A stretch of DNA of 9,745 bases from Thermococci archaeon (GTDB taxonomy: Archaea > Hadarchaeota > B88-G9). Below the pieces are notes generated by a model. The model saw only the letters and a list, made by a program, of their open reading frames with translations. It did not search any database and was not told where the DNA came from. Numbering within the stretch: the stretch's first letter is position 1; each line of letters opens with the position of its first letter. The position numbers and the translations under genes are program-made. Of the stretch, positions 6,199 through 8,290 are shown one piece after another. Location: NCBI GenBank assembly GCA_003660555.1, contig QMUK01000045.1:1-9745 (forward strand), in the 5' to 3' direction.

Positions 6199-7173
6199 TT
6201 AGTCCTCTTCGGGTTCCTTTATCCACTCACCCGGTCTAATGAATATCGGTTCAGGCTCTTTAACCTTTGCTAATTCTGCTGCAACTTCTATTGCTCTGTT
6301 AAGTCCTCCTAATTCGTCTATCAATCCCAGGTCCAGGGCCTCTTCAGAGGACCAGAACTCACCGCTTTCCAACTCTCTAGCCCTATTCAGATCTATTCCC
6401 CTCCTGTCTAGTAGATTGGTAGATATGTAGAGCTCGTCTGCCATTAGCCAATTGTAGTACATTTCCTCCTCCTCTGAATCTAGAGGTCTAGTGGCCCAGA
6501 ACATGTCCTTGTGTTTGCCTGCCTTGAATACCGTGACCTCTATCCCCTCTTTCTTCCAATATTCGGAGTAGTCTATGTGTCTGAGGAGAGGCCCAAGCCA
6601 TCCGACCGATGCGTGTTCATTCACTATCACTCTGTCCGAGTATATTGCAGCGTTGTATCCTCCCCCCCATATTCCTCCTCCGGAATAGACTACTACAGGT
6701 TTCCATGCTCTCAATTCCATTATGTAGTCTCCTAGAAATACATCTGAATTAGAGGATGCACCCCAACTATCTATCCATAGAACTACTGCTTTTGAATTAT
6801 CAAATCTCATTTCCCTCAGTGATTTTATGTACTCTGTTACCTTCTCAGGAGTAATGTCCTCGTCTATTCTCAATATGGCTATTTTGCCCTTTTCTACTTC
6901 TTTGATCTTGCCATCTCTCAGGGAGAGTATTTCCTCTCTGAGAGACTTTGCTTCCTTGATGCTTTCATTTATCTCAGAGAGAAGAAGCTTTACTTCTTCC
7001 ATTTCATCCTCCTTCATCCTCGTATAGTTTGATATTTCTGAGTCAATTCCCCGTATTTCCTCTCTGATGATTGAGATATCTCTTTTAGTGTCCATTACCT
7101 CGACTATTTCATAGGAGTTATACAGAATCAGACATAGCAACATAGTCATAGCGAGGAGAGAAGCTCCCCTCAT
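6199..7173 (-). CDS. SppA-like S49 family protein lacking the catalytic serine (probable pseudoenzyme)
   Basis: The protein has 324 residues from the ATG at 7173, which overlaps the upstream stop by one base (TAATG) and has GGAGG eight bases before it. A GTG at 7182 would abut that site. Residues ~4-20 are a membrane anchor. Residues ~30-95 are charged and heptad-like, probably a coiled coil. The rest is a ClpP/crotonase-like S49 domain. In active S49 proteins the nucleophile sits in SGGY; here the block is WGGGYNAA, with Gly170 (codon GGG) in place of Ser. The upstream oxyanion loop reads DSWGASSNSD instead of the usual SPGG/GGG form. The lysine is kept (Lys222 in GKHKDMF), at the same 52-residue spacing as in the neighbouring active paralogue. 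It therefore probably cannot hydrolyse peptides alone and may be a structural or regulatory subunit. The frame is intact over 324 codons with conserved structure, so this is not a decayed gene. Confidence 0.88.
   Translation of the reverse strand: MRGASLLAMTMLLCLILYNSYEIVEVMDTKRDISIIREEIRGIDSEISNYTRMKEDEMEEVKLLLSEINESIKEAKSLREEILSLRDGKIKEVEKGKIAILRIDEDITPEKVTEYIKSLREMRFDNSKAVVLWIDSWGASSNSDVFLGDYIMELRAWKPVVVYSGGGIWGGGYNAAIYSDRVIVNEHASVGWLGPLLRHIDYSEYWKKEGIEVTVFKAGKHKDMFWATRPLDSEEEEMYYNWLMADELYISTNLLDRRGIDLNRARELESGEFWSSEEALDLGLIDELGGLNRAIEVAAELAKVKEPEPIFIRPGEWIKEPEED
6768..6797. repeat. 30-base perfect match shared with the neighbouring sppA (copy 1)
   Basis: These bases are identical to 7805-7834 in the same orientation. 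They encode the SKAVVLWID strand just before the oxyanion loop in the serine-less paralogue. Confidence 0.85.
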
Positions 7174-8252
7174 TACCTCCACCTCCTAATTTCAGGATAT
7201 GGGAGGTAATATATCCCTTCATCCTCTATCAGTTCCTCTTCTTTCTCTTTCTTACCCACAGATCCCCCAGCTTTTAGATATAATATTGCTGGATTCTTCG
7301 CTTCAGATAGCTCCACAGCTAGCTCTATTGCGTCCTCCAAAGTCCCTAGTTTGTCTACTAGTCCGTAATCCAGTGCCTCGAATCCCAAATATTTGACAGC
7401 TTCTGAATACTTTCTGACTTCTTCTTCTTCCATTCCTCTTCCTCTCGCAACGTACCAGACGAAGGAGTCATAATTTCTCTTTACACTTTCCTCCCTCATT
7501 TTCCTTTCCTCATCACTCAACCCTCTATGGTCATAGAACATGTCCTTGTGTGGTCCAATTTTCCAGAACCTCATCCTTATTCCTTTCTTCTCGTAGTATT
7601 TTTCTTTGTTATAGTGGAGACTGATCACCCCTATGTAAGCTACCTCAGCCAGCGGATCCACTACTATTTTATTGGCGTTGGACGAGACGTGATATCCTCC
7701 AGAGAGTATTCTCCCGCCTGAGAAGACCACTACTGGCTTTTTTTCCCTTAGATTGTATAAAGCTTCAGTTAATTCTCTGCTAGCAGACGCAGAACCTCCA
7801 CCAGTATCTATCCATAGAACTACTGCTTTTGAATCGTCCTCTGCCAATTCTCTAAATGATTTTAGAAAAGGACTTATGGTCTTTGAGTCTATTCTCCCAG
7901 TCCATCTCAGAAGAGCTATTATGTCAGCGTCTTCTCCTATCTCTTCTTCAATCTCTGATCTACTGTTGAATCCTCTTATTACATTCTTCTCTCCTTTCAA
8001 TTCCCTCAATATCCTATTGTACTGACGTATTTCCTTTTCTTTCAGTGACTTGATAGCTAATGCTGCGTATTTTGAACTCTTAGACTTCATGTATTCGTCT
8101 TTCGCTCTCTCTAGATCCTGCAATAACTCGTGTTTGTGTTGTTCTAGCTTCTTTCTCTCTTCTCGAAGGGCATCGGAATATTCTCCTAAGGCTAGGGCAC
8201 TTCCTATTAACAATACTATCGACAACACAACGCAGACCTTGAGGTATCTCAA
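7173..8252 (-). CDS. sppA: Signal peptide peptidase SppA-like serine protease (S49), active-site residues intact
   Basis: The family cleaves remnant signal peptides and other membrane-associated peptides on the outer side of the cytoplasmic membrane with a Ser/Lys dyad. This copy has 359 residues. Residues ~1-23 are a signal peptide or anchor (VCVVLSIVLLIGSALALG), ~24-92 a Glu/Lys-rich probable coiled coil, and the remainder the S49 domain. Key sites are the oxyanion loop WIDTGGGSASAS (147-158), Ser184 in LSGGYHVS, the YIGVI block, and Lys236 in GPHKDMF followed by LSDEER. The Ser-Lys spacing of 52 matches archaeal SppA (Ser162/Lys214 in Thermococcus kodakarensis, from memory). The C-terminal tail is Lys/Glu-rich. 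The TTG start is the first possible codon after an in-frame stop and gives a proper signal peptide, but only GGTGG very close to it could serve as a ribosome site. It heads a three-gene cluster with its serine-less paralogue and a secreted hydrolase. Confidence 0.9.
   Translation of the reverse strand: MRYLKVCVVLSIVLLIGSALALGEYSDALREERKKLEQHKHELLQDLERAKDEYMKSKSSKYAALAIKSLKEKEIRQYNRILRELKGEKNVIRGFNSRSEIEEEIGEDADIIALLRWTGRIDSKTISPFLKSFRELAEDDSKAVVLWIDTGGGSASASRELTEALYNLREKKPVVVFSGGRILSGGYHVSSNANKIVVDPLAEVAYIGVISLHYNKEKYYEKKGIRMRFWKIGPHKDMFYDHRGLSDEERKMREESVKRNYDSFVWYVARGRGMEEEEVRKYSEAVKYLGFEALDYGLVDKLGTLEDAIELAVELSEAKNPAILYLKAGGSVGKKEKEEELIEDEGIYYLPYPEIRRWR
7805..7834. repeat. 30-base perfect match shared with the serine-less paralogue (copy 2)
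   Basis: This is the second copy of the match at 6768-6797 and encodes the same strand in the intact sppA. The flanking sequence diverges at once on both sides. A shorter match, AGAACATGTCCTTGTGT, also links the two genes around their catalytic lysines. Confidence 0.85.
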
Positions 8253-8282: not shown

Positions 8283-8290
8283 TATATAAA
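8283..8290 (-). promoter_or_regulatory. Archaeal TATA box for the sppA operon
   Basis: The minus strand reads TTTATATA in the 48-base gap between the ClC gene and sppA. A start about 26 bases downstream would be near 8260, leaving a leader of about eight bases before the TTG at 8252. This fits the poor Shine-Dalgarno of that gene. The two genes downstream have good internal ribosome sites, as expected for later genes of an operon. Confidence 0.6.

Follow-up and report, generated by a model that had tools for sequence, protein, structure and literature searches.

What role can be ascribed to an SppA-like protein whose gene is intact, overlaps that of a sister with a complete Ser-Lys pair, and encodes a glycine in place of the nucleophilic serine? 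This question is raised by a locus in a 1.3-Mb archaeal draft genome of 150 contigs; the window considered here is contig 45 of this assembly, with a length of 9,745 nucleotides. The two paralogs, A and B (Table 1), share the same protein layout, each combining a single hydrophobic segment at the N-terminus with a long charged helix and an S49 domain. B displays ~33% identity to A and has an open and intact frame of 324 codons, with no stop or frameshift. The ATG at 7173 is the likelier start of B than the GTG at 7182, because it is preceded by the strong Shine-Dalgarno motif GGAGGTGGAGG and overlaps the stop of A in the sequence TAATG; this start yields the numbering Gly170 and Lys222, and the GTG yields G173 and K225. 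From this overlap and the GGAGGTGGAGG motif we infer translational coupling of A and B. The start of the adjacent hydrolase gene lies only a few bases from the stop of B, and the box TTTATATA is probably the promoter of a unit comprising A, B and the hydrolase. The product of this last gene, encoded directly downstream of B, combines a central S9/PHB-depolymerase-like part bearing the motif GHSMGG with large flanks that have no Pfam match.

Table 1. Features of the window, with positions counted from its first nucleotide
Feature	Position	Strand	Remarks
ClC channel gene	9644-8301	minus	
TATA-like box TTTATATA	8283..8290	minus	31 nt before the TTG of A; read from sequence
Gene A (P0002), S49/SppA	7173..8252	minus	TTG start; Ser184 and Lys236; sister of B
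Gene B (P0001), Ser-less S49/SppA paralog	6199..7182	minus	open from GTG 7182; likely start ATG 7173
TAATG, stop of A overlapping ATG of B	7171..7175	minus	GGAGGTGGAGG upstream
N-terminal membrane segment of B continuing into a single long predicted helix, residues 2-91	6910..7179	minus	hydropathy; AlphaFold2 model
30-nt stretch identical between B and A, SKAVVLWID region	B 6768..6797; A 7805-7834	minus	
Altered oxyanion loop DSWGASS of B	6751..6771	minus	consensus N/D-S-P-G-G-x-x
Codon GGG, Gly170 (ATG numbering; G173 from GTG)	6664..6666	minus	nucleophile Ser column
Retained Lys half-site of B, GIEVTVFKAGKHKDMFWATRPL	6481..6546	minus	K222 and R229 (ATG numbering); Lys codon 6508-6510
S9/esterase-like alpha/beta hydrolase, secreted, 867 aa	3588..6191	minus	third gene in presumed transcription unit

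Both proteins are recovered by the Pfam model for peptidase family S49 (PF01343), with 89.1 bits for B and 116.2 bits for A at a curated cut-off of 24.9; the NCBIfam model TIGR00706 (SppA_dom), with its threshold of 155.45, is passed by A (163.7) and failed by B (119.0). A family match alone would get B annotated as an active SppA. At the catalytic positions of the family, B displays the general-base Lys, K222 within HKD, and Gly170 in the place of the nucleophilic Ser. As the nucleophile column is occupied by Gly170, B is, judging from its sequence, to be classed as a non-peptidase homolog of S49 rather than as a peptidase.

The register of Gly170 and K222 is the same in the PF01343 match (E 3.8e-25), in the matches to PDB 3rst, 4kwb and 3bez, and in an alignment of 187 S49 domains, and A and B align without a gap from KAVVLWID via the SGGY site up to HKDMF. 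These comparisons bear out the original prediction that Ser is replaced by Gly170 while Lys222 and an intact frame are retained, and place no other Ser of B in the nucleophile column. We also considered S164 of the motif YSGGG (ATG numbering) as an alternative nucleophile, and rejected it on finding that it pairs gap-free with a Ser/Thr that A and the Thermococcales proteins have in the preceding strand. The GGG codon of Gly170 sits within a run of seven G. Every Ser codon is at least two bases away from GGG; a single miscall therefore cannot account for Gly170, and a sequencing error or single mutation at this site was discarded as an explanation. The oxyanion loop had been thought lost along with the nucleophile. 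It is indeed altered, B having DSWGA where the consensus is (N/D)SPGG, with P replaced by W and the second G by A, but the loss is not complete, as S139 and G141 (GTG numbering) still match the consensus.

In the AlphaFold2 models, which treat A and B as single chains, the S49 domain of B attains a pLDDT of ~95 and superimposes on B. subtilis SppA (3rst) with a Z-score of 27.1 and 1.6 A rmsd over 219 residues; the A model has a Z-score of 27.8. Thus modeled, the SppA-like ClpP fold of B is predicted to be intact, as anticipated from its motifs, with Gly173 (GTG numbering) at a helix start in the position of Ser184 of A.

We then compared B with a profile of 176 family members that excluded both A and B. 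B scores below all 176 members at three places, namely the oxyanion loop, the SGGY motif and the GxxG loop; at the Lys site and the C-terminal motif it stands at the 24th and 20th percentiles, respectively. In the Ser-side columns its mean deficit amounts to 3.19 bits, whereas all the columns outside the Ser side together average 0.57 and the Lys site shows a deficit of 0.05; the resulting Ser-minus-rest contrast of 2.61 lies far from the family values (mean -0.05, sd 0.31, maximum 0.74). The Ser-side loss has a permutation p of 0.0002 among conserved columns, while under circular shifting, a more conservative test, its rank is 3 of 206. The N-halves of fused, two-domain SppA proteins display a larger deficit on the Ser side (3.3-4.5) than at the Lys site (1.4-2.1); in their C-halves the pattern is reversed. 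The loss in B is limited to the Ser half-site, and its Lys half-site is ordinary for the family.

Both Ser and Lys are present in 177 of the 187 aligned domains, A included, in a sample that is mostly archaeal with about 20 bacterial domains. The other ten comprise B, four N-halves with Lys and no Ser, four C-halves with Ser and no Lys, and one truncated fragment; the fused proteins were contributed by E. coli, by an Anaerolineaceae bacterium and by two archaeal genomes belonging to a single family. As the remaining Lys-only domains are fused N-halves, B is the only intact stand-alone Lys+/Ser- domain among the 187. The archaeal fused proteins, from genomes of 3.3-3.6 Mb, display a split into a Lys-half and a Ser-half like that of E. 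coli SppA. Orthologs of B were sought in its family (1 genome), its phylum (28), 394 archaeal relatives and the Thermococci-type phylum (115), and none was found; peptide patterns likewise recovered none in a species-genome collection (B alone) or in viral contigs (A and B). Literature searches on S49 pseudopeptidases and on Lys209/Ser409 yielded nothing useful. S49 genes occur in 195 of 394 archaeal genomes, nearly always singly, and the four of the present genome (on contigs 12, 45 and 79) are the highest count found; the two beyond A and B both encode Ser and Lys. A has peculiarities of its own: its oxyanion loop reads DTGGG for NSPGG, AYIGV stands for GSIGV, and the score of its Ser-site block is at the lowest end of that seen in the family.

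A phylogenetic tree joins A and B as a sister pair (SH-aLRT 97; bootstrap/SH-aLRT 99/94 with the shared blocks masked) within a clade that includes the SppA proteins of Thermococcales, Methanofastidiosum and similar forms, and the fused N-halves constitute a separate clade (99). A descent of B from fused N-halves is ruled out by this topology, and since A and B are sisters apart from those N-halves, the loss of Ser in B was independent of that in the fused proteins. The branch of B measures 2.76 and that of A 1.28, i.e. B has evolved about twice as fast. The 30-nt block identical between the two genes stands in domains that are 50% identical in DNA; as a run of 30 was reached in none of 5000 codon redraws, it suggests that the two genes have undergone local gene conversion.

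SppA active sites are not confined to one chain: in the octamer of B. subtilis, residues from two neighboring monomers make up the sites (PMC7568657). Because sites are shared in this manner, a subunit with only a Lys face could join in catalysis next to a Ser-bearing neighbor. Given this architecture and the one-sidedness of the loss, B most likely belongs to a mixed A/B ring, either as a trans donor of Lys to the Ser of A or as a silent subunit, with A as the obvious candidate partner. Our main reading, to which we assign a probability of roughly 0.45, is that B would be a dedicated Lys-half subunit of such a ring. We posit that tandem duplication of an archaeal SppA gave rise to A and B, that one operon makes them together, and that both would be seated in the membrane with their S49 domains outside. 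With a site spanning neighboring subunits, one providing Ser and the next Lys, the Lys face of B would complete the site of the adjacent Ser of A, and its own Ser face would form a dead site. The labor would thereby be split as it is in fused SppA of the E. coli type between the N-half and the C-half, a state reached independently with separate genes. We infer co-transcription, the A/B hetero-oligomer and catalysis in trans. Slightly more tentative is the full proposal of an SppA encoded by two genes, with the catalytic Lys contributed in trans by a distinct subunit lacking Ser; this would be an unfused and independently evolved counterpart of the E. coli-type enzyme, with a partner that still has its Lys. 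The earlier description of B as non-catalytic is apt for B by itself; with sites common to adjacent subunits it may be too strong, because retention of the Lys half is the expected appearance of a trans-acting catalytic partner.

The weak point of the Lys-donor model is that A keeps Lys236, while the Ser half of fused SppA has lost its Lys; the fast evolution of B, its circular-shift rank of only 3 and the failure to find an ortholog in the genomes searched also count against it. As A retains its own Lys, it does not strictly depend on that of B, and B may rather serve as a silent or regulatory member of a mixed ring, with fewer sites, altered substrate binding or inhibition as the outcome and a structural part for its Lys. 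This alternative is less likely than Lys donation but is the foremost of its rivals: A has a full Ser and Lys pair and could self-pair, ClpR provides an instance of such silent ring members (PMC6508832), and B. subtilis SppA is kept inactive by its operon partner SppI, albeit an unrelated protein (PMC7568657). Nevertheless, a structural need alone does not readily explain a normal Lys site beside Ser-side loops that are the worst of 176.

It is improbable, in our view, that B is a duplicated copy on which selection has relaxed, a future pseudogene still unbroken, even though its long branch and the failure to find an ortholog in the searched genomes would be in keeping with this. It has diverged to ~33% identity without a stop or frameshift in 324 codons, its loss is localized rather than even, conserved residues off the Ser face are retained, and its start overlaps the stop of A within a gene cluster. 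The view that B is maintained rather than decaying thus finds support in the frame, the operon coupling, the confident fold and the concentration of loss on the Ser half-site. Less probable still is that B acts independently of A, either forming a homo-oligomer for peptide binding or for the scaffolding of envelope proteins, or partnering one of the other two SppA proteins; its predicted fold is intact and the genome does offer those two Ser- and Lys-bearing proteins, but the gene overlap and the sisterhood indicate A as the partner. Finally, the site-lining loop DSWGASS carries two adjacent serines, Ser140 and Ser141 (ATG numbering), either of which might serve as a relocated nucleophile in a B that is still a peptidase. 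This we consider very improbable, as the oxyanion loop no longer has its second Gly and we know of no precedent for it in S49 or ClpP-fold proteases.

If B is indeed a Lys-half subunit, half-site specialization in Ser/Lys ring proteases would be possible without gene fusion, comparable to the subunit specialization of ClpP and ClpR, and A and B would furnish a clean test system for catalysis in trans, requiring two genes and a few point mutants.

Among known systems, E. coli SppA (protease IV), which is tetrameric and bears a Ser-Lys dyad (PMC9360617), has an N-half that is Lys+/Ser- like B and a C-half that is Ser+/Lys-, as read from the K-12 gene. It is, however, one fused chain, whereas B is a separate gene of another clade whose partner keeps its Lys; B thus displays the Lys+/Ser- signature of the fused N-halves and does not share their descent. 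The best structural match, B. subtilis SppA (3rst, 4kwb), resembles B in its single S49 domain after an N-terminal membrane segment, but carries the full Ser and Lys pair and assembles into homo-octamers. In the tree, A and B are closest to the SppA proteins of Thermococcales and Methanofastidiosum, which differ from the pair in being encoded by a single gene, with Ser and Lys in all those examined; that of T. kodakaraensis has one membrane segment and an extracytoplasmic active site (PMC4343526). ClpR of cyanobacteria and chloroplasts is a ClpP-fold paralog devoid of catalytic residues that occurs in a ring with active ClpP (PMC6508832). It is hence a precedent, within the ClpP fold, for mixed rings holding catalytically dead subunits, even if it differs from B in its family and its ATP-dependent system. 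Moreover, as each ClpP triad lies within one subunit, ClpR is unable to donate half a site, the very contribution that we propose for the Lys face of B.
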